DNA of 64,000 nucleotides from Nakazawaea peltata (taxonomy: Eukaryota; Ascomycota; Pichiomycetes; Alaninales; Pachysolenaceae): the NCBI GenBank assembly GCA_001599355.1, contig BCGQ01000008.1, positions 124,001 to 188,000 of the forward strand, given 5' to 3'. A model generated the notes under the pieces. That model was not told the DNA's origin and did no database searches. It saw nothing but the letters and a program-made list of their open reading frames with translations. Position numbers and translations under genes: made by a program. The stretch's first letter is position 1; every line of letters starts with the position of its first letter. This document shows positions 1-64,000 of this stretch, piece after piece.

Positions 1-1
1 T

Positions 2-1861
2 GAAGATTTCTTGAATACCGCCGAGTTAGCTGACAAAGACTTCACCGCAGAGAAGAGGTCCACAGTCAAGATTATCTCGTTAAACCTGAACAACAATGCA
101 AGCGGAAGTTCAGGACTGGGTGGTGTCAATGCCTCGTTAATTTCGCAAGCTGAAGAGTGGAAAAGACATCGTCTGCAAGCAAGTAATATTGCCTCATTGA
201 CCGTCCCTCGTAGACCTGCTTGGGACCAAACCACCACTAAATTCCAATTGGAAAGACTGGAAAAAGAACTGTTTTTGGAATGGAGACGTGGATTACTGCA
301 ATTGCAACAGAACAATGACTTGTTATTGACTCCATTCGAAAGAAATTTGGAAGTTTGGAAACAGTTATGGAGAGTCATCGAAAGAAGTGATTTGGTCGTT
401 CAAATTGTCGATGCCAGATCGCCTCTTTTATTCAGATCGGTCGATTTGGAGTTGTATGTGAAGGAGCTTGATGAGAGAAAGCTGAATTTATTGTTGGTTA
501 ACAAAGCTGACTTGTTGTCGGCCCAACAAAGAAGAGCTTGGGCTGATTATTTCATCGAACATGGAATCAAATATACATTTTTCAGTGCACGTGACCTGAA
601 TGAAGAGTTAGAGAGGGAACTGGAGTTAGAGAGACAGCAATTGGAGGAGGAAGATGAAGAGGAAGAGGAAGAGGAGGAAGATTATTATAAAGATTCGGAA
701 GAGGAAGATTATTCAAATGAGTATTCTGATGAAGAGTCTGAAGTTGAGGCTGAGCATGAGGCTGATGAGAAGGCTAAGGAGGCTGATGAACCTGAGGCTG
801 AAACTGAGGCTGATGAGAAGACCGAGACCGCGGCCGAGACCGCGGATCACATCGAAGACGACGAAGAAATCAGAATCTTATCCATCAACGAACTTGAAGA
901 GTTATTCCTCTCCCTGGCCCCAAGCCAACCCCTCACCCCATCCCCAAACCCAAGTGAAGCTGCCAAATTACAAATCGGTTTAGTAGGATATCCTAACGTC
1001 GGTAAATCTTCGACTATTAATGCCCTTGTGGGATCTAAAAAAGTGAGTGTGTCGAGTACTCCAGGTAAAACTAAGCATTTCCAAACCATCCTGTTATCAT
1101 CTAAAGTAATTTTATGTGATTGTCCAGGTTTGGTCTTCCCTAATTTCGCATACACCAACGGAGAATTGGTCTGTTGTGGTGTCTTACCTATTGATCAAAT
1201 GCGTGAGTATATAAGTCCATGTCAATTGGTGCTGCAACGTATTCCAAAGTTCTTCTTAGAGCTGTTATATGGTATTGCCATTCCAACTAAGCCTATCTCC
1301 GAAGGAGGTTCAGGAATCCCAACTCTGCAAGAATTATTAAATCTGTACCTGCGTGCTAGAGGTTATATGACCCAGGGTTTCGGTAGTGCCGATGAACCAA
1401 GAGCCTCTCGTTACATTTTGAAGGACTACGTCAATGGTAAATTGTTATTTGTACATCCTCCTCCTAAGAAAGATGATACCCCAGTCACATATGAAGAACA
1501 GCTCGAATTCAATAAAGAAAACTACACTTTAGAGCATTTACCATCTCAAAGACAAGAACAAATCAGACAGCTGCTGAAAGATAAAGGTATTGATGAGTTA
1601 GATTTGCTGCGTGATTTATCTAAATTGACCTTCTCTGCTCATAGTGGAGCCCAAACTGGTCAAGGAAAGACTTCTTCTACTTATGGTGGTAAACAGCTGG
1701 CTCTTATTGATGCTGGAGGAGATTTGGACCGTGAATTCTTCAAGATGAATGGTGTTCGTGGAATCGGATCTACTCCCTTCCATAAGGTATCGAATGCAAG
1801 TGCTGGAAAGCATCATAAAAAGAAGAAGAAGGTCAAGACTAGAACTCTTAATAGGGATTAA
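2..1861 (+). CDS. LSG1: Large-subunit GTPase Lsg1 (5' end outside window)
   Basis: Cytoplasmic circularly permuted GTPase that releases the export adaptor Nmd3 from pre-60S ribosomes. The reading frame is open from base 2, so the N-terminus lies outside the window. G motifs come in permuted order: NKAD near base 500, then GYPNVGKSS near base 990 and DCPGL near base 1125. Between G4 and G1 lies a long Glu/Asp-rich insert (bases 640-870). The C-terminus is Lys-rich. CTG codons fall at family alanines (KEAFLEWRR, TAQELL, NAYARARGY, GGKQAAL), so this gene is strong evidence for CUG-Ala decoding. Identification is secure from near-continuous similarity to yeast Lsg1. Confidence 0.96.
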   Translation, partial: EDFLNTAELADKDFTAEKRSTVKIISLNLNNNASGSSGLGGVNASLISQAEEWKRHRLQASNIASLTVPRRPAWDQTTTKFQLERLEKELFLEWRRGLLQLQQNNDLLLTPFERNLEVWKQLWRVIERSDLVVQIVDARSPLLFRSVDLELYVKELDERKLNLLLVNKADLLSAQQRRAWADYFIEHGIKYTFFSARDLNEELERELELERQQLEEEDEEEEEEEEDYYKDSEEEDYSNEYSDEESEVEAEHEADEKAKEADEPEAETEADEKTETAAETADHIEDDEEIRILSINELEELFLSLAPSQPLTPSPNPSEAAKLQIGLVGYPNVGKSSTINALVGSKKVSVSSTPGKTKHFQTILLSSKVILCDCPGLVFPNFAYTNGELVCCGVLPIDQMREYISPCQLVLQRIPKFFLELLYGIAIPTKPISEGGSGIPTLQELLNLYLRARGYMTQGFGSADEPRASRYILKDYVNGKLLFVHPPPKKDDTPVTYEEQLEFNKENYTLEHLPSQRQEQIRQLLKDKGIDELDLLRDLSKLTFSAHSGAQTGQGKTSSTYGGKQLALIDAGGDLDREFFKMNGVRGIGSTPFHKVSNASAGKHHKKKKKVKTRTLNRD

Positions 1862-2121
1862 TGCTGAAAATTTATAGTATTAACTTATAGTATTAAATAT
1901 TAATGAGTAGTTAGATGATTAGATGTAGAAATAATACTGTTTGTAGCCTCTGCTTCTCGTTGTACTTACCGTAGTTCTTCTATCCCCCCTTCTGGCCCTC
2001 TTCCACCACCTTCCATCACTCTTTCCGGCCCCTACCTACCCCTTCTGGCCCTGCTAGCCCCTGTACCCCCAATTAAGGTCGTGTGCGCCCAAAAAACTTT
2101 TCAAGGAAAATTTACCTCAAG

Positions 2122-2193
2122 ATGAGCTTCAAGCTGAGCTTGTTCGCAAGGAGATCAGTTGGTCAAACTTCAAGCAGAGATCAAGTTAGTTAA
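2122..2193 (+). promoter_or_regulatory. Possible upstream ORF of RPR2
   Basis: An ATG at 2122 opens a 23-codon frame that ends with TAA at 2191-2193, four bases before the RPR2 ATG at 2198. If it lies in the mRNA leader it would lower translation of RPR2 or force reinitiation. The frame differs from RPR2 and I see no convincing splice signal joining the two. Whether it is transcribed is unknown. Confidence 0.3.
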
Positions 2194-2197
2194 GATC

Positions 2198-2641
2198 ATG
2201 GTGGAAATCATAAAGACAAAGCCTCCTAAACAGGTAGGACAAAAAGAAAGTTATGCTAGACTTTCATATTTATATCAACTGCTGACGGTGACGGCCCTTG
2301 GCTCTGCTGGGGCTGTCCGACCTTCTGGGGCTGTCGATAAAAGCGCATCGAGTATACTCAGCAGGATGTACACAAGGAATTTCGGTCGTGTGCTGAAGAA
2401 AGGAGTTTTAAAAGCGTCCCCGCATATCAAAAGAACCATTTGTAAAAAATGTGATAGATTATTGGTGGATGGTATTAATGTTGGAACTAAGATGGAATTG
2501 GTAGGAGAAGGAAGGGGTGAAATATTACAAATTAAGTGCGAGTGTGGATATATTAAGAGGTTTCCTGTGGGGAAGAACCGGGAGTATGAGTTATTTGTTG
2601 ACAAATCAAGTATTCTGTTGGGTGCTAAGGGCGATAAATGA
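2198..2641 (+). CDS. RPR2: RNase P subunit Rpr2
   Basis: Protein subunit of nuclear RNase P, which removes 5' leaders from precursor tRNAs. The 147-residue product has the Rpr2/Rpp21/Snm1 zinc ribbon: a first cysteine pair in KRTICKKCDRLL and a second in KCECGYIKRF, followed by the conserved KRF segment. The N-terminal ARLSYLYQ segment matches the helix before the zinc domain in yeast Rpr2. The frame stays open upstream to a TTG at 2159, but 2198 is the first in-frame ATG. Snm1 of RNase MRP is related, but the TICKKC motif and size fit Rpr2 better. Confidence 0.88.
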   Translation: MVEIIKTKPPKQVGQKESYARLSYLYQLLTVTALGSAGAVRPSGAVDKSASSILSRMYTRNFGRVLKKGVLKASPHIKRTICKKCDRLLVDGINVGTKMELVGEGRGEILQIKCECGYIKRFPVGKNREYELFVDKSSILLGAKGDK

Positions 2642-3410: not shown

Positions 3411-6400
3411 ATGATTGCTATCAGTCAGCTTGTACACGGTGTCGCTAAGAGAGCTGTCTCAAGACAGTCGATGGCCTCCACCACCCGGTTGATGGCCACC
3501 GCTGCCTTCGATAAGCCTCCTCTGTATGCTGGAGCCGGTATTTTATCGTCGCTTTCCAAAGAGAATAACCATTCACAACAATTGGTCGATGTATCCAAGG
3601 TGTTGGTCATTGGATCTGGAGGTTTGTCCATTGGACAAGCCGGAGAATTCGATTACTCCGGTTCTCAAGCTATCAAGGCTTTGAAAGAAGCCAACAAGAA
3701 GTCCATCTTGATCAACCCCAACATTGCTACTAATCAAACCTCTCACGCTTTGGCCGATGAGATCTACTACTTACCTGTTACTCCTGAGTACATTACTTAT
3801 ATCATTGAGAGAGAAAAACCAGATGGAATCTTGTTGACTTTCGGTGGTCAAACCGGTTTGAACGTTGGTGTCCTGTTGGACAAAATGGGTGTCTTTGACA
3901 GATACAATGTCAAGGTTTTGGGTACTCCAATTAAGACTTTGGAAACTTCTGAGGATCGTGATTTGTTTGCTCAAGCTTTGAATGAGATTAATATCCCAAT
4001 TGCCGAATCCATTGCCGTTGATACCGTTGATGATGCTTTGAAGGCTGCCGAATCTGTCGGTTACCCAATCATTGTCAGATCTGCTTATGCTTTAGGTGGT
4101 TTGGGATCTGGTTTTGCCAACAATGAAGAGGAATTGAGAAACTTGGCCTCTCAATCTTTATCCTTAGCTCCTCAAATCCTTGTCGAGAAATCTTTGAAGG
4201 GCTGGAAAGAAGTTGAGTACGAAGTCGTCCGTGACAGAGTAGGAAACTGTATCACTGTTTGTAACATGGAGAATTTCGACCCATTGGGTATCCATACCGG
4301 TGATTCGATCGTTGTCGCTCCTTCTCAAACCTTATCAGATGAAGAATATCACATGTTAAGATCTGCTGCTATCAAGATTATCAGACATTTGGGTGTCGTT
4401 GGTGAATGTAACGTCCAATACGCTTTACAACCAGACGGATTAGACTACAGAGTCATCGAAGTTAATGCTCGTTTGTCGAGATCTTCTGCCTTGGCTTCTA
4501 AAGCTACTGGTTATCCATTGGCTTACACTGCTCTGAAAATCGCTTTGGGTCACACTTTACCAGAATTACCAAACCCTGTCACCAAGACCACCTCTGCTAA
4601 TTTCGAACCTTCTCTTGACTACATGGTCACCAAGATCCCAAGATGGGACTTGTCCAAATTCCAACATGTCAAGAGAGACATTGGATCCTCAATGAAGAGT
4701 GTCGGTGAAGTTATGGCCATTGGTAGAAATTTCGAAGAATCGTTCCAAAAACTGATCAGACAGGTCGATCCATCTTTAGTCGGATTCCAAGGTGCCGAAT
4801 TCGAGGACTTGGACTTTGAATTGCAAAACCCTACCGACCGTAGATGGTTGGCTGTTGGACAAGCTTTGTTACACGAGAATTATTCTGTCGACAAGGTCCA
4901 CGATTTGACTAAAATCGATAAGTGGTTCTTGTACAAATTGATGAACATTGTTGAAATGCAAAAAGAATTGGAAAAAATCGGCTCCTTGTTCGGATTAACT
5001 CAAGACGTGTTGACCAGAGCCAAGAAGTTGGGTTTTTCCGACAAGCAGATCGCCCTTGCTACCGGATCTAAGGAGATGGAGGTGCGCGCGCGCAGAAAAA
5101 ACTTCGGTATCATTCCATTTGTTAAGAAAATCGACACTTTGGCTGCTGAATTCCCTGCTAACACCAACTATTTGTACACCACTTACAATGCGTCGGAAAA
5201 TGACGTCACTTTTGACGAATACGGAACTATGGTCTTGGGATCTGGTGTGTACAGGATCGGATCTTCTGTGGAGTTCGATTGGTGCGCGGTTTCTACTGCT
5301 CGTGCTTTAAGAGATTCGGGTAAGAAGACCATTATGATCAACTATAACCCGGAGACTGTTTCTACCGATTTCGATGAGGTTGACAGATTGTACTTTGAGG
5401 AGCTTTCTTTCGAGAGAGTTATGGATATTTATGAATTGGAGAATGCCAAGGGTGTAGTTGTTTCTGTTGGAGGTCAATTGCCTCAAAATATCGCCTTGAC
5501 TTTACAGCAAGAGGGTGCTAAGGTTCTTGGTACTAATCCTGAGGATATTGACAAGGCCGAAGATAGACATAAATTCAGTAGTATTTTAGATTCTATTGGA
5601 GTTGACCAACCTCAATGGAAGGAGTTGACTTCTATTGAAGAAGCCGAGTCTTTTGCTCAACAAGTCGGTTATCCTGTTCTTGTTAGACCTTCTTATGTTT
5701 TATCTGGTGCTGCTATGTCTGTCATTCGTGATGAGAGTGAGTTGGCTGCTAAGTTGGGTAATGCTGCTAAGGTTTCTTCTGATTATCCAGTTGTTATTTC
5801 TAAATTCATTCAAGGAGCTGAAGAAATCGATATCGATGCTGTTCTGAGTCAAGGTAAGGTTGTCGTTCATGCTGTTTCTGAACATGTCGAAAATGCTGGT
5901 ATTCATTCTGGTGATGCTACTTTGGTCTTACCACCTCAAAACCTTAGTGAAGACATTATGGCTAGATTAAAGACCATTGCTGATAAGGTTGCTGCTGCTT
6001 GGAACATTACTGGTCCATTCAACATGCAAATCATCAAATCTGTTAACCCAGAGACCAACGAGGTTGAATTGAAGGTCATCGAATGTAACATCAGAGCTTC
6101 TAGATCTTTCCCATTCGTTTCTAAGGTTCTCGGTGTCAACTTCATCGATGTTGCCGTTAAGGCTTTATTGAACAAAGACGTTCCAGCTGCTGTCGATCTT
6201 ATGAAGAAGGATTACCCATACGTTGCTACCAAGGTTCCTCAATTCTCGTTCACCCGTTTGGCTGGAGCTGATCCATTCTTGGGTGTCGAAATGGCTTCCA
6301 CTGGTGAAGTTGCTTGTTTCGGTAAGAACACCGTAGAGCTGTACTGGACCTCTATGCAATCTACTATGAACTTCCATGTTCCAAAACCACCAAGTGGTAT

Positions 6401-6845
6401 TTTGTTCGGAGGTGATTTGACCAACGACAACTTAGGTACCGTTGCTAAGACCATTTCTGGTTTGGGTTACAAATTCTACACTGCTTCTACAGAAGTTGAA
6501 GCCTACTTAAAGAAATACGTCGATATTGAAGTCGAGACCATCGAGTTCCCAACCACTGACAAGCGTCTGTTGAGAGAGGTATTCCAAAAGTACGATATCA
6601 AATCTGTATTCAACTTGGCTCTGAGCCGTGCCGAATCGTTACTTGATCAAGATTACGTCATGAGAAGAAACGCCATTGACTTTGCTATTCCTTTATTCAA
6701 TGAGCCAAATACTTCTTTGTTGTTTGCTCAAGCTTTGAAGGAGAAATTGCCAGCTAAATTGGAACTGGAGAAATCTGAGGGTGAGGTTGTCATTCCAGAG
6801 GAGGTTAGAAGATGGAGTGAATTTATTGGTGGAAAGCCGGTATAA
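3411..6845 (+). CDS. CPA2: Carbamoyl-phosphate synthase, arginine-specific large subunit
   Basis: Makes carbamoyl phosphate for arginine from ammonia (delivered by the Cpa1 glutaminase subunit), bicarbonate and two ATP. The 1144 residues show the duplicated CPSase layout: first ATP-grasp half starting at GSGGLSIGQ (about residue 69), second half from GSGVYRIGSS (about 610), and a C-terminal regulatory MGS-like domain from about residue 1000. It is a stand-alone CPS-L, not the CPS-ATCase fusion Ura2. The first about 40 residues are Arg/Ser/Ala-rich with no acidic residue until about position 33, which resembles a mitochondrial presequence. The start at 3411 is the first in-frame ATG; a TTG lies at 3390. 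CTG aligns with Ala (YTAAKIALG, FQKAIRQ). Confidence 0.96.
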   Translation: MIAISQLVHGVAKRAVSRQSMASTTRLMATAAFDKPPLYAGAGILSSLSKENNHSQQLVDVSKVLVIGSGGLSIGQAGEFDYSGSQAIKALKEANKKSILINPNIATNQTSHALADEIYYLPVTPEYITYIIEREKPDGILLTFGGQTGLNVGVLLDKMGVFDRYNVKVLGTPIKTLETSEDRDLFAQALNEINIPIAESIAVDTVDDALKAAESVGYPIIVRSAYALGGLGSGFANNEEELRNLASQSLSLAPQILVEKSLKGWKEVEYEVVRDRVGNCITVCNMENFDPLGIHTGDSIVVAPSQTLSDEEYHMLRSAAIKIIRHLGVVGECNVQYALQPDGLDYRVIEVNARLSRSSALASKATGYPLAYTALKIALGHTLPELPNPVTKTTSANFEPSLDYMVTKIPRWDLSKFQHVKRDIGSSMKSVGEVMAIGRNFEESFQKLIRQVDPSLVGFQGAEFEDLDFELQNPTDRRWLAVGQALLHENYSVDKVHDLTKIDKWFLYKLMNIVEMQKELEKIGSLFGLTQDVLTRAKKLGFSDKQIALATGSKEMEVRARRKNFGIIPFVKKIDTLAAEFPANTNYLYTTYNASENDVTFDEYGTMVLGSGVYRIGSSVEFDWCAVSTARALRDSGKKTIMINYNPETVSTDFDEVDRLYFEELSFERVMDIYELENAKGVVVSVGGQLPQNIALTLQQEGAKVLGTNPEDIDKAEDRHKFSSILDSIGVDQPQWKELTSIEEAESFAQQVGYPVLVRPSYVLSGAAMSVIRDESELAAKLGNAAKVSSDYPVVISKFIQGAEEIDIDAVLSQGKVVVHAVSEHVENAGIHSGDATLVLPPQNLSEDIMARLKTIADKVAAAWNITGPFNMQIIKSVNPETNEVELKVIECNIRASRSFPFVSKVLGVNFIDVAVKALLNKDVPAAVDLMKKDYPYVATKVPQFSFTRLAGADPFLGVEMASTGEVACFGKNTVELYWTSMQSTMNFHVPKPPSGILFGGDLTNDNLGTVAKTISGLGYKFYTASTEVEAYLKKYVDIEVETIEFPTTDKRLLREVFQKYDIKSVFNLALSRAESLLDQDYVMRRNAIDFAIPLFNEPNTSLLFAQALKEKLPAKLELEKSEGEVVIPEEVRRWSEFIGGKPV

Positions 6846-8165: not shown

Positions 8166-8858
8166 ATGCTGATTAAGAAGAAGTTTGACGACGATGAGCC
8201 TGTTCTGGTTCATCTGAAGCATGAAGAAGATGAGTTTGCTGAAGATTCTGAAGAGGAGAATGTCTCTGATTCCGGATCCGAATCTGAGGAAGACAGCGAT
8301 GATGAGGCTCCAGAAGAAGAAGGAGTCCTGGATGGTCAACGTGAAATTGAAAGATTAGAGAAAGAGAGACTGGCCCTTGAAAGAGAACTGAAACTTCTGG
8401 AGAAACTCAAGAGAAGAGAACAGAATCTGAAGTTGCAACAACAACTGAAAGAGAAGAAACTGAGACAAGAACTGCTGCTGATAAAGGCTATGGATCAAGA
8501 GTCGGAATCTGAAGATGAAGAACTTCCTGATATGTTACCAGATGATTTACTTCTGAGTGTAGAACACAAACAAGCCGAAGCCAGCATGGAACAACCACAG
8601 CATATTAATTTTGATGACGTCGAAATGGATCCAAAAGAAATCAGAAAGCAGTTGAAGAAAGAAAGATTGCTGCAATTGAAGCAGCTTCAGAAGTTGACTA
8701 ATAAGAACCTCAAGAAGGGTCCAGTAACGGTAGCAGTAGTTAAGAGCAATTCCAAGTTGGTGAATAACCGGAAAGTGGTAGCTGCTCCTGTTGCTGAGAG
8801 CAAAGTTGTTGGTAAGAGAGATAAATGGCTCAAACGTAAAAGGTTGGGTAAGGCTTGA
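8166..8858 (+). CDS. BUD21: SSU processome component Bud21/Utp16
   Basis: Small nucleolar protein of the U3-containing SSU processome, which acts in 18S rRNA maturation. The 230 residues comprise an acidic Ser/Glu/Asp-rich N-terminus with a DDEAPEEEG segment, a charged coiled coil (about 58-105), an acidic patch, and a basic C-terminus ending DKWLKRKR. The APxEEG segment and the terminal K-D-K/R-W-L-x-R-K signature match yeast Bud21/Utp16, which is of similar length (about 214). Overall similarity is low because most of the chain is low complexity, so the call rests on these two landmarks and the RRPE-type promoter. Confidence 0.78.
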   Translation: MLIKKKFDDDEPVLVHLKHEEDEFAEDSEEENVSDSGSESEEDSDDEAPEEEGVLDGQREIERLEKERLALERELKLLEKLKRREQNLKLQQQLKEKKLRQELLLIKAMDQESESEDEELPDMLPDDLLLSVEHKQAEASMEQPQHINFDDVEMDPKEIRKQLKKERLLQLKQLQKLTNKNLKKGPVTVAVVKSNSKLVNNRKVVAAPVAESKVVGKRDKWLKRKRLGKA

Positions 8859-9158: not shown

Positions 9159-10645
9159 ATGAATATCTCAAATAGTAGTCGCTTGAACACAAGCAGCTCT
9201 TATGAGATAGGGGGTAATATGACAGTTGAAATGGGAGGAATTGGTGCTGGCACCGCTGAAATTCCCGGAGGATCTCGGAGTAATCCTGATCCCCAGTTTG
9301 CTCCAGAAACATCCAATTCTTCCTCTATATCATATCCTGATGGAGGTCTACAAGCATGGACTGTAGTTTTCGGCTCTTTACTTGGAGTAATGGTGTCATT
9401 GGGACTCCCAAATTCCATTGGAGCCATAGAGCTGTATATCTCTACTAACCAACTTGAACATTTCTCCACAATGTCCATCAGTTGGATCTTCTCGATATTT
9501 CTTGGACTCGGGTGTATTGGAACTGTGTTCAGTGGTCTTATTTTTGATGAGATTGGAAGTCTCATTCCAATGTTAGTTGGGAATCTGCTTACCTTCACCG
9601 GAGTCTTTATAGCTGGTAATTGTAATAAACCATGGCAGTTCATTCTGTCTTTCGGGTTTATATCAGGAATGGGAGTTTCACTCTGTCTCAGCCCATTAAT
9701 AGGTGTCATATCTCATTGGTTTATAAATAGAAGGCTGACTCTGATGGGAGTTGCATCAATTGGGGCCTCTTTAGGAGGTGCAGTATTCCCATTAATGTTG
9801 AATTCACTTTATGAACACATAGGCTTCCAATGGGGGATGCGGATTTTGCTGTTAATATGTCTGGTACTCTTAGGAATAGCCACCTTATTAATTAAAGAGC
9901 GTCCTGAATTTCGTCAAGCTTTGAAGAGAAGAGAACTTCTTGATCTGGGACTCGATCCTGACCTGGAAGACACACCTCGTAAACCTTTATCATTCTACAT
10001 CAAAAACAGCTTCGATTTCGATCTGTTTAGAGATCGTAAATACCTTCTTTGTGTGATCCTGGCAACTTCTCTTGAGGTGGGTTTAATGTCAGCAACTACT
10101 TTCTTCTCTTCCTATGCTTTAGATGTCGCCCATTCCTCTAACTCTGTCCTGTATCACTTGTTATCAATTATGAATGCCTCCAGTTGTCTTGGAAGGTTTT
10201 TGCCTGCCTTTTTTGCCGACAAATTCGGTCCTTTCAATGTCGCTATCGTCATGAATTTCTTCTGTGTCTTATGCCAGTTGATCTTATGGCTAGCATTCGG
10301 ATCTTATGGCTAGCATTCGGATCTCATATCCCAGTATTGTACAGTTTTGCTATTATCTATGGCTTCTTCTCTCTGTCAATCTTGCTGTTGGTCCCAGTGA
10401 CCTGCTCTGTTGTTTCTCCAGTCAAGAAATTCGGTCGTAGATACGCTACAATGTACGTGATGGTCGGTTTGGGGATTATCTTTGCTCTTCCTGTAGCTGG
10501 ATCTATAATTGGTCCTGGAGGAAAGACTCGGTATGATCATCTTATTATATTTGCGGCTTGTTTCCTGCTGTTAGGTCTACTGTCTCTTATTTGTGCTCGA
10601 ATTTCGATCCAAGGACCCAAATTTGTTCTCATGCTGAGGGTTTAG
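9159..10645 (+). pseudogene. MCH-family (monocarboxylate-type) MFS transporter, frameshifted
   Basis: Major facilitator of the fungal Mch group (Mch4/Mch5-like), with the signature PDGG near residue 60 followed by the first membrane helices, and about 12 helices in all. The frame from 9159 stops at 10313 after 384 residues. The remaining helices continue in another frame from about 10301 to 10645. The break coincides with a perfect 20-bp tandem duplication at 10281-10320; one copy alone would keep a single frame. Everything else looks intact, so the lesion is recent, polymorphic, or a sequencing/assembly error. Substrate is unknown; Mch5 carries riboflavin and other members are uncharacterised. 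Confidence 0.85.
10281..10320. repeat. Perfect 20-bp tandem duplication inside transporter gene
   Basis: Two identical adjacent copies of a 20-bp unit beginning atcttatggctagc (10281-10300 and 10301-10320). Twenty is not a multiple of three, so the duplication shifts the MCH-type transporter frame. Typical origin: replication slippage. Confidence 0.97.
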
Positions 10646-10776: not shown

Positions 10777-11775
10777 TCACTCGTCAATAAGTAATACAAA
10801 TGTAGGTACAATGAACCCCAGTAAAGCGATTCCAAACTCTTGAGGTGTCAATTCAGAAGCAATCAGTACGTCCATCATTGTATGTACTCCAATATAGAGG
10901 AAAGAACCACCACTCATTGTCATCAGAATGGCAATTGGTTTCCCGGTCTTGGTGACGTCCAAGAATAATTGGAATACCACAAATGACAAGATGGCACCAA
11001 CAAGTAAAGAGACACTAAATACAAATAAATGCAATTTTACTTTGGTTTTGGCCAACCCTTGGCCCATTAATATGGATACTAAACTAAAACTTGTGGGGAG
11101 TTTGTGAATAAGAATAGCGAGGAAAACTACGATATTAAGAGACTGTTTCTTGGCGAATATAGAGCTGGTGAGAAGCACTCCATCGGTTGCAGAGTGGAAT
11201 ATAAGTCCAATAGTAAGAGGAGATTCAAGAAGTGGTTTCAATCGAGCTAAAATTGAGTGATATGAACCCGATGAGTCCAGCCTTTGAATATCAGTAGTAG
11301 AAGTACTAGTAGGTAAGATATCTGAGGGATTTTGAGATACGGGAATGGACCCATTTGAACCCTCATTCGAGTCTCGAGTCCATTTATCAAACATATCAAC
11401 GACTTGTGTCGCATTAGCAGCCCTTGAGCCCAATGAAAGTACCAATTGGAAATGATCCACAATGTACATCAGAACAAACCCCAGAAGTAAGGCTATACCA
11501 ATGATTTTTGAGTTCAATTCCTCGGAATTTTCTTCCCCAGATGTCTTATCAGTAGCCTCATATACACATGAGATCCCTTCAGGGATAATTACCACCATCA
11601 GTGTACTCATTAACACCCCCATACTCAATACTGACAAGTATCGAAGATGGTCTCTAGAGAATTTAATGCTGAAAGGTATCAAACCACACCCAAATGACGC
11701 CAGAGACAGCAGTGTCGCAAGTATTAACATCTTAATGAAGTCCATAAGGAGCTCCTGGATCGATAGCCCCGTCAT
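10777..11775 (-). CDS. ATX2: ZIP-family metal transporter, Atx2/ZIP9-like
   Basis: Multi-pass ZIP transporter of the Golgi-type branch (yeast Atx2, animal SLC39A9), expected to move Mn or Zn across a Golgi membrane. The 332 residues hold about eight hydrophobic helices. The metal-site helices read HSATDGVLL and AILIHKLP, the branch forms of the ZIP HxxxDG and HKxP motifs. The loop between helices 3 and 4 is Ser/Thr/Asn-rich. The frame extends 9 bases upstream only from a GTG; the first ATG is at 11773-11775. It converges on the broken transporter gene with 131 bp between them and diverges from DAD4. Atx2 orthology is likely but not proven. Confidence 0.8.
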   Translation of the reverse strand: MTGLSIQELLMDFIKMLILATLLSLASFGCGLIPFSIKFSRDHLRYLSVLSMGVLMSTLMVVIIPEGISCVYEATDKTSGEENSEELNSKIIGIALLLGFVLMYIVDHFQLVLSLGSRAANATQVVDMFDKWTRDSNEGSNGSIPVSQNPSDILPTSTSTTDIQRLDSSGSYHSILARLKPLLESPLTIGLIFHSATDGVLLTSSIFAKKQSLNIVVFLAILIHKLPTSFSLVSILMGQGLAKTKVKLHLFVFSVSLLVGAILSFVVFQLFLDVTKTGKPIAILMTMSGGSFLYIGVHTMMDVLIASELTPQEFGIALLGFIVPTFVLLIDE

Positions 11776-40049: not shown

Positions 40050-40100
40050 GGGGGGATTTTTTTTGCCGAATATGCAGGCTCAAAGTTTATTTTCGGTGCA

Positions 40101-40109: not shown

Positions 40110-40142
40110 TATTATGATGAGGGGGGGGGACCCTTGAGAATT

Positions 40143-54485: not shown

Positions 54486-56219
54486 TCATTTAGGCTTAAT
54501 CAACTCCTTGAAACGGAAGTGTGCCAAATGTCCCAAATCTTCCTTGAAGATCAGTAAATTGTGTTGAACCAACTTACGAGTTGGCATCTCAAATACCTCA
54601 TCAATTTCTTCCAAAGTCTTACCCTTCAATTCTGGCATGAACAAGATTTGGTAAATAAGACCAATAACACCGAAACCTCCGTAGAATCCCAAAGTGACAC
54701 CGGTCAAAGTCATTGCATCCTTCATCTTGGTGAAATTGTAAGTAACGATAAAAGCACAAAGGAACAACAACAGAGAAGAACTGGTCATTCCACGAGATCT
54801 CATCTTCATGGAGTAACTTTCCAGAGGAACAACCCAGGTAAGGCAAGCATACGATCCGAAGAAAATCCAGTACAAAATCATACCAGTAAGATAAGTACCT
54901 AACAGAGCAGGTCTGTTTGATTCGATTGGAATCAAGTACCCAATACCAACCAAAATCAAACCTACAAAGAAACAAGGGATCATCAAATTGGCCCAGAAAC
55001 GACGACCAAACTTGTCCATGTACAAAACTGCTGGAGTCGTACCAAGTAATAACAGTCCCGAACCCACTAATGACATGAACACCGATTTCTTGTCATCAAA
55101 TCCGATACTAGCCATCAAAGTCGAAAGGTAATAAAGCATACCATTAGCACCGGTGAATTGACCTAAAATGATCATAATATTAGCAAATACAAATGATCTT
55201 CTGTCTCTTGGGTTTTTAATGAAATTGAACCACACCATCCATGAATCTGAGGCCAGCTCTTTAGAATCTGGATCATTAACTGTCTCGTCATGGACCATCT
55301 TGTTATGACAGATTTCTACAAATTCTAACTTGTTCTTTGGAAGAGAAAGATCTCTCAATCTTCTCCAAATACCAAACAGATGGCCCTGTTGACCTTTATG
55401 GACCAAATATCTTGGAGATTCAGGTAACAAGAACATTCCGAAGAAAAGCAGAGTAGAGAATACCAAGGAAGATCCCAACATATATCTCCAGTTACCTTCA
55501 ACATTAACAAAGATAGCCAGGATCACAAAACCACAAACCTCACCAAAGGCGATATTCCATTGGTACAAACTGACAATAGAACCTCTGGTCTCCAGGGGAA
55601 TACATTCACTCACATATGTTGGAACGGTACTTCCCTCCAAACCGACACCGACACCCAAGATAAAACGGCCCGGATACATTTCCAGAGTGTTGTGCAGCAG
55701 CAGCTCCAAAATGGCCCCAATTGTGTAGAAACCACAGGCAATGATAATTGCCATTCTACGACCACACCATTCATTAATTGGAGACATCATCAAAGAACCA
55801 AGGGTAGCACCAAGAGGCATCAAGGCATTTACCAATGAACTCTCAGCGTCGGTCAAATGTAAATCAGAAGGTAAGTAAAGGTTTGCACCACTAATCAAAG
55901 ATTGGTCAAGACCAGAAAGGAAACCACCACAAGAAGCAAATACCAGAAGCATCAACAAAACGTGAGACTGCTTCTTCAATTTAAGCTCCCATTCTAGGAA
56001 TTGAAACCGGTGCCAAAAACCTTTTGGTTGGGCCTGGTATTCCAGGTACATTGCCTCATACTTTTTCATCTCTTCGTCGATATCATAGCCGGTTTCCTGA
56101 AGAAAGTTAATGTTTTCTTCGGTCAATCCCTCAGTATCATACTTGATCTGGAGTTTTTCCGAAGACGTGATCTTGTGCTCGATAGAGTGAACTGAGTTCA
56201 CTGATCCGCTGTCACTCAT
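54486..56219 (-). CDS. Sugar-porter family MFS transporter
   Basis: Plasma-membrane transporter of the MFS sugar-porter family (577 residues, about 12 helices). The signatures LVNALMPLGATLGS, NEWCGRRMAIII, PGRFILGVGVGLEGSTVPTY, PESPRYLVHKGQ and ELKGKTLEEIDEVFE are typical of the family. It has a longer acidic N-terminus and a long central loop. Substrate is not predictable by eye; the sequence is not of the close Hxt type and may carry a polyol, inositol or another sugar. The frame continues upstream to a TTG at 56327; the ATG at 56217-56219 is preferred. Confidence 0.85.
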   Translation of the reverse strand: MSDSGSVNSVHSIEHKITSSEKLQIKYDTEGLTEENINFLQETGYDIDEEMKKYEAMYLEYQAQPKGFWHRFQFLEWELKLKKQSHVLLMLLVFASCGGFLSGLDQSLISGANLYLPSDLHLTDAESSLVNALMPLGATLGSLMMSPINEWCGRRMAIIIACGFYTIGAILELLLHNTLEMYPGRFILGVGVGLEGSTVPTYVSECIPLETRGSIVSLYQWNIAFGEVCGFVILAIFVNVEGNWRYMLGSSLVFSTLLFFGMFLLPESPRYLVHKGQQGHLFGIWRRLRDLSLPKNKLEFVEICHNKMVHDETVNDPDSKELASDSWMVWFNFIKNPRDRRSFVFANIMIILGQFTGANGMLYYLSTLMASIGFDDKKSVFMSLVGSGLLLLGTTPAVLYMDKFGRRFWANLMIPCFFVGLILVGIGYLIPIESNRPALLGTYLTGMILYWIFFGSYACLTWVVPLESYSMKMRSRGMTSSSLLLFLCAFIVTYNFTKMKDAMTLTGVTLGFYGGFGVIGLIYQILFMPELKGKTLEEIDEVFEMPTRKLVQHNLLIFKEDLGHLAHFRFKELIKPK

Positions 56220-57109: not shown

Positions 57110-59842
57110 TTAGATGAGCATCAAGGTCAAGAAGGATAAGACAGAAACCAATCCAGAGACTAAAGTCTTGGCACCAGCACCTTCGAATTCACTAACACTT
57201 ACGGTTGTGGATTCCGACTCAGATCCTGATTCAGATCCTGATTCAGATCCGGTACCGGTGGTGCCTGTGACATATTGAGTCAGGTAGACAGTAGAAGTAG
57301 AATCAGTAGTTCCCTCGGCAGCTTCAGTGGTGCCAGCAGCAGCTTCTGTAGTTCCCTCAGTAGTGGCCCCTTCCAGAGCAGTTGCGGTAGTACATGGAAC
57401 AGTAGTAGTGTAAGTGACAGTTCCAGAAGTTACGACACTTGTAGTGTAACCTACTCCCTCAGTTCCCTCAGTTCCCTCAGAGGTTGTGGTACAAGGAACA
57501 GTGGTGGTGTAAGTAACAGTTCCGGAGGTTACAACGGTAGTGGTGTATCCAACACCGGACTCAGAAGAGGTGGTACAAGGAACAGTAACGGTAGAAGTAA
57601 CAGTACCTGAAACAATTACAGAGGTGGTGTAAACGGCTTCGGTGTCGAGGGAAGAAGTAGCACAGGTGTTCTCTGAGCAAGCAACAGTGACAGTGGTCGA
57701 TTTGTTGTCGATCTCGGTAACGACAGTGGTGTATGAAGTGGATTCTGAGCTTGAAGAGGAATCAGAGGCTGAGCTAGAGTTGGAGCTGTAAACTGTAACA
57801 GTAGCAGATAACTCGTAGGTCTCAACATCTCTCTTGACCTGGGCGAAATCACTTCCAGAGTAAACTTCAACAGTTACATTCTCAGTGAAAGAACCGGCCT
57901 CTTCAATGGCACCAAAGATGGAAACTTCAAGGACAGAACTGCTGCTGATAGAACTACTGAAAGTAATATCGTAAGAAGATTCTCCACAAGTGATAGAATA
58001 CTCGTCAGATGAAACGGCTACACCATCGACGCTAACGACAAAGTCAGAGCAGTCATAGTCAAAGTTGGCTCCGGAGGTAGCAGTGAATGCGACGTTGTTC
58101 CAAGAGGTGAGAGCACCTGGGACAAAGACGTTCCAAGCTGGCAGACCATTAGATTCGTAACCAACAATGTAAGGTGTGGCAGTAGCAGATGAAGAGGCAG
58201 TAGCAGAGGAAGAGGCAGCAGCTGAAGAAGAGATTGGAGCAGAGGTAGTTGGAGCAGAAGAAGCTGGAGCAGAAGATTCACTACTTGGGGTAGAAGATTC
58301 AACAGCACTGGATTCAACAGAAGACGAAACTGGAGTACCACTTGATGAAGCAGACGATGACTCAGGAATCTCGGAGCTCGAAGCAGAGGAAGTTTCTTCA
58401 GCAGAAGAAGAGGAGGAGGAGGACAGGGTAGTTGAAGCAGCTTCAGAGCTAGAAGTGGCCTCGGAGGAAGAAGAACTAGAAGTGGCTTCAGAGGAAGAGG
58501 AGCTGGAAGCTACTTCAGATGAAGAAGAACTAGAAGCAGCCTCAGAGGAAGCAGCACTGCTGGAAGTTACCTCAGAAGAACTGGTACTGCTCGAAGTTGC
58601 TTCAGAGGAAGTAGCCGATGACTTGACTGCCGAAGAAGAACTTGAGAAAATACTAGAGTAGCTCGAAGAAGCAGCACAAGTGTTAGTCTCGTAAACTCCA
58701 GAAGCGTATGTGTCGCAACAAGAAGCAGTTGACAATGAGTCACAGTCAATTAAAGCAAATGGAACATTGTAACAAGCACCAGTCTTCTTAATGTACAAAT
58801 TAGAAGCGGCACAGTCATCAACAATGTATCTAGCCACTCCATCACTTCCAGTGATCCAGATGTAGAACTTACTCAAGTAAGTGCAGTATTGAGAAGAAGT
58901 GAGAACCAACTGACTGTGGTATAAATTATCCTCGATGGTCTCATAGGCGAGGATACTGACATAGCTGGCTCCACTACTGGCCTTCAATCTGAAGAGAGTA
59001 GCGTCAGTGTAACCATAGAAGTCAATAGTAACTTCATCGGAATCAGAGTCGTATGCAAAGTAGGTGTAAAGCTCAAAGTAAGTAATATCGGCGTAAGAAG
59101 CGACATCTTCTTCGTAGATATCGAAGGAAGCAGCCAGACAAACGTCTTCACTGCTGTAGGCATCAGCAGTAGGAACACTTGTGATGGAAGATGGGGTGAA
59201 ACTGTAGGTAGCAGCTACAGTTTGAGTATTAGATACGGTTGAGGTGGTGCTGGTGCTGGTAGTAGTGGTACTGGAACTGGAACTAGAGCTGGAACTAGAG
59301 CTAAAACTAGAACTAGAACTGGAACTGGAACTAGAACTAGAACTAGAACTAGAACTAGAACTAGAACTAGAACTAGAACTAGAACTAGATGTAGTAGTAA
59401 CACTTGATGAAGAAGACGAGGACGATGATGTAGTTGGAGTGTAACAGTATGTTCCAGTTGGAGTAGTGTTCAAATCACAAGCAGCTAAGGCAGTAGTCAA
59501 ATACTTTCCATAATCACTCCAAAGACACCATCCACAATCCAAACAATCGGTAATCTCACCCATGAAATCAGTATCATCATCACACAAACAGGTAGTGTTA
59601 TATGGTCCAGAATCAGTACTGGTGGTGTTCTCGGAACATTCTCTGGCATAGATAATACTGTAACCACAGTAAACATGACATTCGTAAGTACTGATGTCAG
59701 GATTAGCTACGGCTAAAGCAAAAGCCTCAGGCATACCTTCGGCTATGGCTTGGGCAGCAGCATCAGCGAATGCTGAGGCTTTGGCAGATGCCAATCCTAC
59801 AGAGGCAATGGCCATCAAAGCAGTCTTAACTAACGAAACCAT
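57110..59842 (-). CDS. Large Ser/Thr-rich GPI-anchored cell-wall protein (adhesin-like)
   Basis: Predicted surface mannoprotein (910 residues). It has a signal peptide (1-20), a Cys-rich N-terminal domain of ten cysteines (about 50-135) with spacing loosely like CFEM domains, and a Ser run encoded by a hexanucleotide repeat. A folded-looking region with six or more cysteines follows, then Ser/Glu/Ala repeats of the SSSSSSEAT type and a second globular region ending in a KR site. Three copies of a YTT-VVTSGTVTYTTTVPCTT module come next, followed by a hydrophobic C-terminus (LVSGLVSVLSFLTLMLI) typical of GPI signals. The start at 59842 is the ATG directly before the signal peptide. Adhesin function is inferred from architecture only. 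Confidence 0.82.
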   Translation of the reverse strand: MVSLVKTALMAIASVGLASAKASAFADAAAQAIAEGMPEAFALAVANPDISTYECHVYCGYSIIYARECSENTTSTDSGPYNTTCLCDDDTDFMGEITDCLDCGWCLWSDYGKYLTTALAACDLNTTPTGTYCYTPTTSSSSSSSSSVTTTSSSSSSSSSSSSSSSSSSSSSSSSSSSSFSSSSSSSSSSSTTTTSTSTTSTVSNTQTVAATYSFTPSSITSVPTADAYSSEDVCLAASFDIYEEDVASYADITYFELYTYFAYDSDSDEVTIDFYGYTDATLFRLKASSGASYVSILAYETIEDNLYHSQLVLTSSQYCTYLSKFYIWITGSDGVARYIVDDCAASNLYIKKTGACYNVPFALIDCDSLSTASCCDTYASGVYETNTCAASSSYSSIFSSSSSAVKSSATSSEATSSSTSSSEVTSSSAASSEAASSSSSSEVASSSSSSEATSSSSSSEATSSSEAASTTLSSSSSSSAEETSSASSSEIPESSSASSSGTPVSSSVESSAVESSTPSSESSAPASSAPTTSAPISSSAAASSSATASSSATATPYIVGYESNGLPAWNVFVPGALTSWNNVAFTATSGANFDYDCSDFVVSVDGVAVSSDEYSITCGESSYDITFSSSISSSSVLEVSIFGAIEEAGSFTENVTVEVYSGSDFAQVKRDVETYELSATVTVYSSNSSSASDSSSSSESTSYTTVVTEIDNKSTTVTVACSENTCATSSLDTEAVYTTSVIVSGTVTSTVTVPCTTSSESGVGYTTTVVTSGTVTYTTTVPCTTTSEGTEGTEGVGYTTSVVTSGTVTYTTTVPCTTATALEGATTEGTTEAAAGTTEAAEGTTDSTSTVYLTQYVTGTTGTGSESGSESGSESESTTVSVSEFEGAGAKTLVSGLVSVLSFLTLMLI
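59271..59389. repeat. Hexanucleotide microsatellite coding for polyserine
   Basis: About twenty copies of aactag/aactgg, read on the minus strand as Ser-Ser pairs (AGTTCT-type codons) in the wall-protein gene. In-frame copy-number change would lengthen or shorten the Ser stalk. Confidence 0.92.
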
Positions 59843-60789: not shown

Positions 60790-61998
60790 ATGGCAGACAC
60801 AACTGAACCAATTGTCGTCATTGACGGCGTATTATATGGTGCCAAGACGGCGGATCATACCTTAATCGAGACTCAGATCTCATCCGACGATGCCCAAGGG
60901 GTCCCAGAGATCGACACAAAGACAGGGGATGTGCCTGAGCAGTTCACAAGTGAATGGAAGGTTATTATCATCGATTCAGTCAAGTCAGGATCAGGCAGAC
61001 AAGATGTTGCTGATGTTTACTCAAATTTGATTGAGCCGTTGTTCAAGAAGGTTTCTAGGCCGGGTAACTCTTTATCTTATCACAAGACAGAGTCTGTTTC
61101 GAGTGTAGCAGAGATAGCAGAGGAATTGAATGGGGACGAATGGGATGGTAAGCATGTATTTGTCATTTTAATGAGTGGAGATACCTCAGTAGGTGAGTTC
61201 TTGAACCATTTTACCCCCAAACAAGGTCAAAAATTACTCATCGGAAATGTTGCCTTAGGAACTGGAAACGCAATGTTGGCCTCTTTAAAGGTAGGATCTC
61301 TCATCCGGTCAATTTCAGCATTATTTAGTAGTCACAGACGTAAATTGGGTATCCATTCGGTGTCTTTCTCGAATTGTGATGCCCATCTCACCGTACAAGA
61401 CGAAATTGTAGAAGAAATCCAGCCAGGTTCGAAATTTAAATTCGTAGCCGTCTTCTCTTGGCTGGTCCATAGTGCTTTGGTAGCTGATAGTGATACTCCT
61501 GAATTGAGGAAACTTGGAATCAAGAGATTTCTGATGCTGGCCCTGAAAAATCTCGAGAAAATCCAATCTTATGAATGTCAAATCTCAATTGGAGACTCTA
61601 AGATCGAACCTTCTTTACATTCTTACCTCGTATTCACAGTCCTCTCTAATTTCGAGAAAGAGTTCCGTATATCACCTCATCTGGATCTCCAGAATTTGTA
61701 TATGGTTGAAATCCCCGATTCGGAGCAGCATGACCTGTTAATGTCGATCATGAAAGAACTGTATCATGAGGGAAGTCACGTGAAGAATCCAATAGTTAAT
61801 TATAAAAAATGTGAGGGGGTTAGCGATAATGAAGCTCTCGTGAAGTTACAGATTCCTTTAAAATCTCTGGTGGCTGAGAAGCTCCGTTTCTGTATTGACG
61901 GTGCTACCATCAAATTGACTAGTCCTACAAAAGATATCGAAATATCAATCTACAAAGAGTCCGATATCTCGGTATGCCTGTTTGCTGATTCATTATAA
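60790..61998 (+). CDS. Diverged lipid-kinase-like protein (DAGK catalytic fold)
   Basis: 402-residue protein resembling the diacylglycerol/sphingosine-kinase catalytic domain. The nucleotide-loop motif, usually GGDGT, reads SGDTS (about 129-133) followed by EFLNHF; the second motif, usually MGTGN, is intact in VALGTGNAM (about 154-162). A segment like SWLVHSAAVADSDTPELRKLG parallels the family's SWGFHADIVxxSE. Replacement of the second Gly of GDG suggests weakened or absent ATP binding, or a distinct substrate. No membrane segment. It could be a Lcb4-related fungal paralogue; the substrate cannot be assigned. The stop is 10 bp from the MCM10 stop. Confidence 0.6.
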   Translation: MADTTEPIVVIDGVLYGAKTADHTLIETQISSDDAQGVPEIDTKTGDVPEQFTSEWKVIIIDSVKSGSGRQDVADVYSNLIEPLFKKVSRPGNSLSYHKTESVSSVAEIAEELNGDEWDGKHVFVILMSGDTSVGEFLNHFTPKQGQKLLIGNVALGTGNAMLASLKVGSLIRSISALFSSHRRKLGIHSVSFSNCDAHLTVQDEIVEEIQPGSKFKFVAVFSWLVHSALVADSDTPELRKLGIKRFLMLALKNLEKIQSYECQISIGDSKIEPSLHSYLVFTVLSNFEKEFRISPHLDLQNLYMVEIPDSEQHDLLMSIMKELYHEGSHVKNPIVNYKKCEGVSDNEALVKLQIPLKSLVAEKLRFCIDGATIKLTSPTKDIEISIYKESDISVCLFADSL

Positions 61999-62008: not shown

Positions 62009-63690
62009 TTAGAAAATAATCTCTAAGTCATCATCTGAGTCATCATTCGTAGCAGAAGCTCTGTTTGGAGCCTTCTCTTCCTTCACCTTTAAATTCTCCT
62101 TGATAATTGCCAGTTTCAACTTCCTTCTTAATGTGATTTGCTTCTCTCTGGAAGTCATCTGTACAGCTGGATCCTCTTTGATCTCCAGCTCCAGCAATTT
62201 ACGTTTCTTATCTAATACCGCACGATACAGTTTATCGGAGCCCTCTAATAACCCCATTTTATATGCTCTACGAACATCATCGAGGTCATCATTGAAGAAC
62301 AGTTTCAGCAGATTAGTCGATGAGAATTTCTTACTAAGTTGAGAGTACCTGTCTCTCTTCTCGGCAAGAGGATCATTGTATAAGGCCCCGGAGACATTAT
62401 TGGAGTTGCTATTCATTAAAATCTGCTGTTTGACTCCCTGCTCATTCACCGGTTCATACATCCGGAAACTTCCATTGAACTCCATTCTTTTAGCAGTTGT
62501 TTTCTTGAACAGAAGCTCTTGGTGGAAATGACAATGAGATTGGGAAGGATCAATAATTACTCCACAGCTGTTCCCGGTTGCATTGGTTCGTGCTGGACAA
62601 GTCCGATATGCCAGTTTGCCAATCTCCAACACAGAATCATAGTCATATTTCAATGATAAGTTGAAAGCATTTACGTTGCTACTGTATTTTTTAGAGGTTC
62701 TATTTACGAAAACTTGGGGATTGAGCACCAGAATGACGTCTCCCACCTTCAATTTCCAATACTTGGTGAACAGTTTATCAAATAGGTTGATATCCACTGT
62801 CAATTTGAAATCACTAATTGTGATTTTCATATATTTCGAAGGGCCATTTCTTCGGTTGTAATTATTGTTGCCTTTGCTTGATATTCCTTGGTTTATCTGA
62901 CTTGCAGCAGTAAACATCGGTTCGGATTTCTTCGTTATCACCCCAATTACACACCAGTTGAAGTAATCTGGCTCTTTGAAGTCCGGAGGAGCAACTTTAG
63001 CAAAAAGCTTATCCAATCTTAAAATCTTCTTATCCGCGAGACATTCATCTACTCGTTTGGATGATATGTACCGTTGAGTGAGTCTCTTTCCTGAGAATTT
63101 CTCAACCTCGTCACATACCACCACTTCCAGATCACCTTCATTTACTTGACTTCCTGCTCCAAACGTGAACACCCGGCTCTTTTTGAGCTGGAGTTGGTAC
63201 AGATCTTGCTGTTGAAGCGTCTGCTTGCTCTTATTTAATGATTCTAAGATGCTATTTGAGTACTCATGTTGACTCTTAGTTGATAAAGATGCAGTTCTGG
63301 CTCCAAAAGTAGGCTTTTTAACAGGTCTTTGACTCAAAGTCTCGGCCAGTTTAGCTTTCTTCTCATTTTCCTCCGCCTCTTTAGCAGCTTTCTCGCTGAA
63401 GTACTTGGGCAGTTCTTGCTCAGACAACTTCCCATGCTGTCTCTTAGCTACTTTTCTCATCTTCAATCGGTTTTCCAATTCTCGCTTCTTCTGCTCGATC
63501 AGCTCCAACTCTTTCTGTAACTCTGCCTCCACTTCAAGCCGCTGTTAGTACTTAAGATCTTAAAATACGTGATGATTCAATTCCACTCACCATCACTTCC
63601 GCTTTCTTCATCGGTAAGTGTCGAAGCATAAGGGTCTCTAGATCCCTTAGGGAGCTCTCGGGGATCAATATCATGTCTATCCACGTTCAT
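62009..63690 (-). CDS. MCM10: DNA replication initiation factor Mcm10 (one intron)
   Basis: Activates the CMG helicase and links it to polymerase alpha. Exon 1 is 63591-63690 (start MNVDRHDIDPRELPKG); exon 2 is 62009-63531; the intron is 63532-63590 (59 nt) with GTGAGT and TACTAAC (63544-63550). The first AG follows the TACTAAC directly and would lead to a stop; the second (GAAG at 63532-63535) keeps frame, joining ESGSD to VEAELQ. The product is 540 residues. Exon 1 matches the yeast start (DPRE, DPY, DEE). Exon 2 carries the OB-fold (ILRLDKLFAKVAPPDFKEPDY) and the CCCH zinc finger (CPARTNATGNSCG, then HCHFH). Confidence 0.9.
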
Positions 63691-63749
63691 AGCTGCACTT
63701 TCATTCACCCCATCCTCATCTCATCAGTCGTGTTTAAGTGAAAAATAGT

Positions 63750-63768
63750 CGCGTATCCCGCGCGTCTG
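63750..63768 (-). promoter_or_regulatory. MCB-like CG-rich elements before MCM10
   Basis: On the minus strand, ACGCGCGGG and ACGCGA lie 60-80 bp before the MCM10 ATG. They contain the ACGCG core of the MBF site, which fits G1/S expression, but neither is a full ACGCGT. They may equally serve the divergent gene at 63824. Confidence 0.35.
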
Positions 63769-63823
63769 CGCCAGACTTTTCCATATTTTGCTAATATTTT
63801 CCCCACTCAAAAAGCTTAATAAT

Positions 63824-64000
63824 ATGCTCTCGCTTCCAGTTACCTTGACTCCTGTCAGTGATCTGCGCATCACCACTAAGAAAGGTAAGAAGCAGATCAT
63901 TTCGCTGCGAGTTAGTGAAAATCCCCGATAGAGTTTAGGTAAGCTGAGTTCGGATATATTTGAGATATTAATTGATTGCTATCGAATAATGTCAACGTAC
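63824..64000 (+). CDS. Start of an unidentified, probably spliced gene (truncated by window end)
   Basis: An ATG at 63824 opens 36 codons (MLSLPVTLTPVSDLRITTKK and onward) to TAG near 63937. Possible 5' splice sites are GTAAGA directly after AAGAAAG (about 63884), GTTAGT (about 63912) and GTAAGC (63939, after the stop). No branch site is visible before the window ends, so the exon structure and product are unresolved. It is divergent from MCM10 with about 133 bp between. Confidence 0.3.

Follow-up and report, generated by a model that had tools for sequence, protein, structure and literature searches.

The 64,000-nucleotide stretch analysed here (contig BCGQ01000008.1, positions 124,001 to 188,000; hereafter the window) is protein-dense nuclear DNA with a budding-yeast gene set (LSG1, CPA2, TFC3, TFB1, OMA1, SSZ1, VPS1, PAP1, MCM10 and others; Table 1), and our subject is the meaning of the codon CTG (CUG in the mRNA) in these genes. 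A first-pass annotation had claimed that CTG is decoded as alanine. In good agreement with this claim we show, as far as sequence can tell, that CTG reads as alanine at the level of conserved proteins: alanine is the best overall fit in domain profiles, homologue columns, bacterial CarB columns and tandem paralogues. We consider it highly probable (roughly 0.96) that the window derives from a budding yeast that decodes CUG as alanine and belongs to the CUG-Ala clade (order Alaninales, with Pachysolen, Nakazawaea and Peterozyma), and the first-pass annotation was probably right about the clade as well.

Codon counts were made on 29 gene models, the open frames at 7210, 12420 and 51079, which have no recognised relative, being omitted. 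CTG accounts for 392 of the 15295 codons (25.6 per 1000), and is thus common rather than avoided, as had been proposed. Translation of the 29 models with the standard code would accordingly place leucine for alanine at 392 residues, bearing out the warning that such translations are wrong at many positions.

Alanine at conserved CTG sites

Each gene model was translated three times, with CTG as alanine (NCBI table 26), serine (table 12) or leucine (table 1), and then scanned with Pfam, one match being counted per domain, which gave 37 domain matches scored under all three readings. Left out of the sum were overlapping or minor families (e.g. ATP-grasp, Pyr_redox, Thi4, NTP_transf_2), two matches absent under leucine (TPR_2 of the F-box gene and bZIP), and matches seen under a single reading (UBA_7 of SWA2 and Cwf_Cwc_15 of TFC3 with alanine, MarR_2 of TFC3 with leucine, F-box with serine). 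The summed scores were 5165.0 bits for alanine, 5056.4 for serine and 4979.7 for leucine. Alanine scored higher than leucine in 31 matches, lower in five (each by at most 1.6 bits) and equal in one; the comparison with serine gave 31 higher, three lower and three tied. The biggest single effect was seen for the M48 domain of OMA1 (102.7 bits with alanine, 87.6 with serine, 82.1 with leucine). A standard code, with CUG as leucine and alanine sites met by chance, falls 185.3 bits below alanine, whereas a serine code of the Ser1 or Ser2 clade falls 108.6 bits below; that serine comes second is expected because alanine and serine are similar.

We then compared the proteins, with CTG masked as X, with solved structures; because of the masking, no reading is favoured in these alignments. 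Entries of the Protein Data Bank (PDB) are named by the molecule name shown in the match list; we take 2o1p, 6n8n, 7x3k, 7o4i and 8ffz to be from Saccharomyces cerevisiae, 8v8t and 7abh to be human, and 3c37 and 4lds to be bacterial. Seven genes were scored by script (PAP1, LSG1, SSZ1, TFB1, TFC3, OMA1 and the sugar transporter). Of their 129 CTG codons, 105 face a residue, the other 24 falling into alignment gaps, beyond the aligned regions or in the uncovered part of TFC3. The 105 columns hold 43 Ala, 10 Lys, 7 Leu, 4 Ser and others, against a background of 7.0% Ala, 10.1% Leu and 7.1% Ser in the same alignments. Alanine is therefore strongly enriched (binomial p ~1e-22), while leucine and serine stand at background (p 0.33 and 0.25), consistent with the earlier statement that both fit these sites poorly. 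By gene, alanine faces CTG in 13 of 20 columns of LSG1 (no Leu, 1 Ser; 6n8n_W), 9 of 11 of PAP1 (the others Glu and Val; 2o1p_A poly(A) polymerase), 3 of 7 of SSZ1 (no Leu, 1 Ser; 7x3k_B), 5 of 19 of TFB1 (2 Leu, no Ser; 7o4i_1) and 4 of 13 of the sugar transporter (1 Leu, 1 Ser; GlcP). OMA1, said to behave likewise, does so in part: among 12 aligned CTG columns (3c37_A), six are alanine and three leucine.

The contrast sharpens in conserved stretches, defined as those in which no fewer than half of the ten flanking residues (five per side) are identical. Here 41 CTG columns of the seven genes hold 25 Ala, 1 Ser and no Leu, although TTG, TTA, CTT and CTC do yield leucine in these same alignments; the controls gave the standard residue for TTG in 57 of 77 columns (Leu), for GCT in 31 of 43 (Ala) and for TCC in 15 of 24 (Ser). 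Similarly, in a set restricted to the yeast orthologues of PAP1, LSG1, SSZ1 and conserved TFB1, likewise of 41 CTG columns, 27 are Ala, 2 Ser and none Leu. When all 20 residues were scored over this second set with BLOSUM62, alanine was best (98) and serine next (32), and with the same procedure only CTG itself and six codons with n ≤ 12 failed to give their standard residue, 51 of 58 codons being recovered.

Three further comparisons were made by eye and kept outside the script totals. VPS1, set against its distant relative DRP1 (dynamin-1-like protein), has nine CTG columns with 4 Ala, 2 Leu, 1 Ser, 1 Ile and 1 Asn; the first gene of a tandem array of four DAO-family oxidoreductases, set against sarcosine oxidase, has three (Ala, Thr and Lys). 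KIN17 is taken up below. The motifs in which the first-pass annotation had placed alanine at CTG (bracketed below) were upheld for 10 of 14 codons. In LSG1 (KE[A]FLEWRR, IPT[A]QELL, N[A]Y[A]RARGY, GGKQ[A]AL), SSZ1 (NQ[A]LQQ, QKT[A]L) and PAP1 (L[A]HPF) every such codon faces alanine. In VPS1 the match with DRP1 stands for SK[A]HYCGT and fails for TQAFEVL, where CTG faces Ser, and for PQAMAM, whose two CTG codons face Leu and Asn. CPA2 is likewise split: codon 375 in YTAAKI faces alanine, and codon 448 in FQKAIRQ does not.

The CPA2 columns come from bacterial CarB proteins, the best 80 of 594 loci found with the alanine-reading query, realigned with CTG masked. Alanine occupies CTG codons 375, 812 and 977 in 79, 76 and 77 of the 80 sequences, respectively. 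Codon 448 is glycine in 77 and alanine in 3, and codon 155 is mixed (Glu 30, Ala 27). Codons 1053 and 1071 do not face alanine; among the non-alanine columns, lysine fills one (72/80), another varies, and coverage is thin for two (5 and 11 sequences). Leucine is the commonest residue in none of the nine CTG columns, and in the control 51 of 55 codons were recovered with their standard meaning. For the sugar transporter, 28 bacterial loci gave 14 CTG columns in which the commonest residue was Ala in six, Ser in three and Leu in one; we give this set little weight because its control recovered only 32 of 52 codons.

The tandem DAO-family genes provide a test that is independent of any database. 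The four paralogues are 52-73% identical and carry 32 CTG codons in 12 columns. In 96 ordered pairs, CTG faces CTG in 78, GCC or GCT in 6, Val in 5 and Ile in 3, with one pair each for Glu, Gly, Asn and Gln. A leucine or serine codon (TCN and AGY included) stands opposite CTG in none of the 96 pairs over these 12 columns. Under a standard reading, a single silent change would turn CTG into TTG, CTT, CTC or CTA, which makes the total lack of leucine partners hard to explain. Together with the absence of leucine from the conserved columns and the lowest summed score, this leaves the leucine reading vanishingly improbable; in its favour are the five slightly higher Pfam matches and the seven leucine columns out of 105. 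The serine reading, helped by its second place in the sums, by three of the 37 matches and by the bZIP and F-box matches outside them, is extremely unlikely: its four serine columns of 105 are at background and no paralogue pair carries TCN or AGY. Moreover, CTG is common here, while passages of PMC11540330 describe Serinales and Ascoideales as avoiding it.

Several observations weigh against reading CTG as alanine. Five of the 37 Pfam matches prefer leucine: TFC3_eWH (24.5 against 22.9 bits), domain D3 of CPSase (100.2 against 100.1), Zip, the KIN17 zinc finger and U3_snoRNA_assoc (the last three in Table 1). Three prefer serine: the B-block domain of TFC3 (62.2 against 60.1), CREG by 0.1 and Patatin by 0.3. 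In the case of Patatin, the claim that the TGL4/5 gene behaves like the others holds against leucine (101.7) and not against serine, alanine (107.1) and serine (107.4) being unseparated. Outside the 37 matches, the bZIP gene, for which the same claim was made, has a weak bZIP_1 match that scores 25.8 with serine and 23.2 with alanine and is absent with leucine; F-box is matched under serine only, MarR_2 in TFC3 under leucine only, and the overlapping Dala_Dala_lig_C family in CPA2 reaches 65.9 bits with leucine, 60.4 with serine and 59.7 with alanine. Four of the 37 matches are the DAO paralogues and hence non-independent. The eight CTG columns of KIN17 (against PDB KIN17, by eye) hold neither alanine nor leucine, and the 23 of the very diverged TFC3 (8ffz_B) hold 3 Ala, 1 Leu and 1 Ser; diverged homologues such as TFC3, KIN17 and sarcosine oxidase are poor witnesses of the meaning of CTG. 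Searches of the window for tRNA genes with ARAGORN in bacterial mode and with Rfam at gathering scores gave no match. One point in favour of the alanine reading is non-specific: CTA, the codon that a tRNA-Leu(UAG) would read, makes up 25 of 1282 leucine codons, 10 of them in the F-box gene, but CTA is generally unpreferred across the subphylum according to passages of PMC11540330.

CTG among the alanine codons

Counted as alanine, CTG supplies 392 of 1274 alanine codons (31%), second to GCT (447). The CUG-Ala code is already known; the less expected point is that CUG is among the commonest alanine codons here. In the conserved stretches of four genes, CTG encodes 24 of the 74 alanines that fall in alanine columns of the orthologues (32%). 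It is as common there as elsewhere, and so is not confined to loose sites. This bears on the possibility that CUG is ambiguous, being read mostly as alanine with a minor leucine or serine share: ambiguity should select against CTG at conserved alanine sites. Low-level misreading would be invisible to sequence statistics, and de novo analysis of mass spectra has in the past suggested 10% leucine in Pachysolen, as reported in passages of PMC8645108; these same passages call that figure mistaken and cite more than 99% alanine. We regard ambiguous decoding as very unlikely.

The CTG share of alanine codons varies by gene, from 5% in a Ser-rich wall-like protein, 8% in CPA2 and 13% in SSZ1 up to 58% in the UTP16-like gene and 64% in KIN17. 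As a codon-bias index we chose the mean of the TTG, GGT and TTC shares. The CTG share falls as this index rises (Spearman -0.61, p 0.0004, 29 genes); taken separately, TTC gives rho -0.62 (p 0.0003), GGT -0.42 (p 0.02) and TTG -0.28 (p 0.15, not significant). A lower CTG share in codon-biased genes is the pattern that decoding by a minor or scarce tRNA would be expected to leave.

Since CTG and GCN lie two nonsynonymous steps apart, alanine has two codon islands in this yeast, as serine has in the standard code. Within same-residue ordered pairs of the DAO paralogues, the same codon is retained in 78 of 84 cases for CTG, 24 of 43 for GCT, 48 of 72 for GCC and 86 of 123 for TTG; for arginine it is kept in 53 of 59 unordered pairs. 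Same-residue pairs cross between islands in 6 of 102 cases for Ala and 10 of 99 for Ser, compared with 15 of 118 for Leu and 6 of 59 for Arg, whose boxes are joined by one step, which is a modest contrast. The CTG columns are also few: CTG is shared by all four genes in six of them and by three genes in another, and it occurs in a single gene in the remaining five. With 12 columns and so modest a contrast with the leucine and arginine boxes, the paralogues suggest, rather than establish, that CTG is frozen at alanine sites. Tentatively, and at somewhat less than even odds, we propose that CUG in this lineage has gone beyond reassignment: it may be fully integrated, with alanine a split-box amino acid like serine and CUG-Ala sites tending to stay CUG. 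If so, such sites could serve as slow markers of each site's passage through reassignment.

Gene catalogue and side observations

The genes of the window are listed in Table 1.

Table 1. Genes of the window with CTG counts and informative matches; triplets of numbers are Pfam bit scores in the order Ala/Ser/Leu
Feature	Position	Strand	CTG codons	Match
LSG1, large-subunit GTPase, 5' end cut	2-1861	+	20	PDB 6n8n_W Large subunit GTPase 1, 718.6 bits
RNase P Rpr2/Snm1-like subunit	2198-2641	+	4	Rpr2 60.8/58.9/54.8
CPA2, carbamoyl-phosphate synthase large chain	3411-6845	+	9	bacterial CarB alignment
U3 snoRNA-associated (UTP16-like) protein	8166-8858	+	15	61.2/61.1/61.4, uninformative
MFS transporter, frame broken at 10281-10320	9159-10645	+	12 in first part	MFS_1 in 9159-10310: 100.2/91.3/94.6
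ZIP metal transporter	10777-11775	-	10	Zip 99.6/97.5/101.1, Leu preferred
CREG-domain protein	13257-14189	-	4	140.5/140.6/139.7, uninformative
TFC3 (TFIIIC tau138)	14542-18540	-	39	DUF6581 204.6/202.0/192.9; PDB 8ffz_B
EFM5-like N6-adenine methyltransferase family protein	18795-19535	+	6	187.4/185.4/186.8
SWA2/auxilin-like	20081-22525	+	37	TPR_2 25.8/21.2/20.0; UBA_7 (24.1) under Ala only
TFB1 (TFIIH p62)	22825-24777	-	21	BSD 93.7/91.7/85.9; PDB 7o4i_1
COA1	25096-25683	+	5	129.7/127.7/121.8
OMA1 (M48 peptidase)	27966-28946	-	15	M48; PDB 3c37_A
KIN17-like	29212-30024	+	14	WH_KIN17 106.9/104.7/98.6; zinc finger Ala 65.1, Leu 65.4
TGL4/5-like lipase	30374-32923	+	32	DUF3336 133.6/132.4/128.5; Patatin
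SSZ1	33347-34936	+	7	HSP70 261.6/257.8/250.2; PDB 7x3k_B SSZ1
Four tandem DAO-family FAD oxidoreductases	34989-41549 (34989-36374, 36881-38257, 38518-39891, 40143-41549)	-	32 in total	DAO, Ala preferred in 4/4
Open frame of 348 aa, antisense to first DAO gene	35172-36218	+	0	
F-box/TPR protein	42049-44175	+	15	TPR_2 26.4/22.4/absent; F-box (20.5) under Ser only
bZIP protein, probable start inside frame	44694-46298	-	22 in frame	bZIP_1
VPS1 dynamin	48096-50171	-	9	Dynamin_M 352.2/348.5/338.9
PAP1 poly(A) polymerase	52568-54424	+	11	PDB 2o1p_A
Sugar transporter	54486-56219	-	16	Sugar_tr 264.8/256.1/248.8
Ser/Thr-rich protein	57110-59842	-		no Pfam match
Lipid-kinase-like (DAGK_cat) protein	60790-61998	+	9	29.8/29.7/29.6, uninformative
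MCM10	62009-63460	-	15	MCM10_OB 53.2/49.8/45.9

A few features merit separate mention. The MFS transporter gene contains, at 10281-10320, a perfect tandem duplication of a 20-base unit that shifts the frame, the two halves matching MFS_1 separately; it is either a pseudogene or the product of an assembly or sequencing error. The CREG-domain protein ends in a C-terminal HDSK-type repeat array, with 45/15-base repeats at 13384-13481, and the long Ser/Thr-rich protein at 57110-59842 looks secreted and has many internal repeats, with CTG supplying 5% of its alanine codons. The first DAO gene has only weak PDB relatives (best E 2.8e-6), and the antisense frame within it is most likely a shadow of codon bias. 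The F-box/TPR gene has unusual leucine codons (CTA 10 of 87, compared with 19 of 1217 in the other models). There is no sign that it uses CTG differently, its TPR domain being matched under alanine and serine and not under leucine.

Decoding of CUG and comparison with known systems

The clade, the tRNA and the loss of the leucine tRNA are matters that we infer. Most likely, a tRNA-Ala(CAG) dedicated to CUG would decode it here, and the ancestral tRNA-Leu(CAG) would have been lost. To judge from its share of alanine codons and its presence at conserved alanine sites, CUG looks fully integrated. According to passages of PMC5951914, a novel tRNA-Ala(CAG) arose when the anticodon of an existing tRNA-Ala gene mutated, with loss of tRNA-Leu(CAG), and alanyl-tRNA synthetase needs no particular anticodon bases, which makes the anticodon-mutation step easy. 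The same passages date the recognition of CUG-Ala in Pachysolen to 2016 and the delimitation of the clade to 2018; the code is NCBI table 26 and the order Alaninales.

Placement in the genus was compared by GC content only: the 42.6% of the window is compatible with, and close to, the 42.3% of Nakazawaea ambrosiae (PMC10106607 Table 2), which is weak evidence. With GC as the basis of placement, the window could in principle derive from a yeast that lies outside Alaninales and reassigned CUG to alanine independently. We hold this to be highly improbable: besides the GC similarity, a single Leu-to-Ala change has been published across the yeasts surveyed in passages of PMC5951914, and Codetta matched the known distribution in 453 of 462 species, as given in passages of PMC8629427.

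Our findings have practical consequences, as table 26 is required for any gene model of this genome. The genes of N. ambrosiae were predicted by AUGUSTUS with the S. cerevisiae model, and the main text of that study contains none of the terms "CUG", "genetic code" or "translation table" (PMC10106607); Leu-for-Ala mistranslation may therefore exist in published sets. Codon-usage studies have dealt with the clade in different ways: according to passages of each, one removed five CUG-Ala genomes (PMC6701816) and another corrected for the clade (PMC11540330). The renewed spread of a captured codon can be studied well in a yeast whose conserved sites often carry CUG-Ala, and the degree of CUG integration is the part that deserves a genome-wide look.

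Among known systems, the window resembles most closely the table 26 yeasts (Pachysolen tannophilus, Nakazawaea and Peterozyma), with which it shares CUG as alanine and budding-yeast genes. It differs from published statements on code-changed clades, passages of which call CUG rare, in its 25.6 CTG per 1000 codons, its 31% share of alanine codons and the frequency of CTG at conserved sites. Passages of PMC8084343, which pool the reassigned species, put the mean frequency of CUG at 0.005, 0.003 and 0.006 for three GAL genes, and those of PMC11540330 name CTG avoidance only for Serinales and Ascoideales. A CUG frequency for an Alaninales species alone was not found in the literature passages, which exclude supplements; high CUG use may be usual for the order. 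The CUG-Ser1 (Serinales) and CUG-Ser2 (Ascoideales) yeasts are like the window in that the same codon was taken from leucine and CTA is rare, its use being reduced in the CUG-Ser clades according to passages of PMC6701816; they differ in that the residue is serine rather than alanine and CTG is avoided. The nearest parallel to the two alanine islands is found in the split serine boxes (TCN and AGY), which likewise form two islands without a single-step synonymous path. However, the CUG-Ala split arose by codon reassignment, whereas the serine split is present in the standard code.

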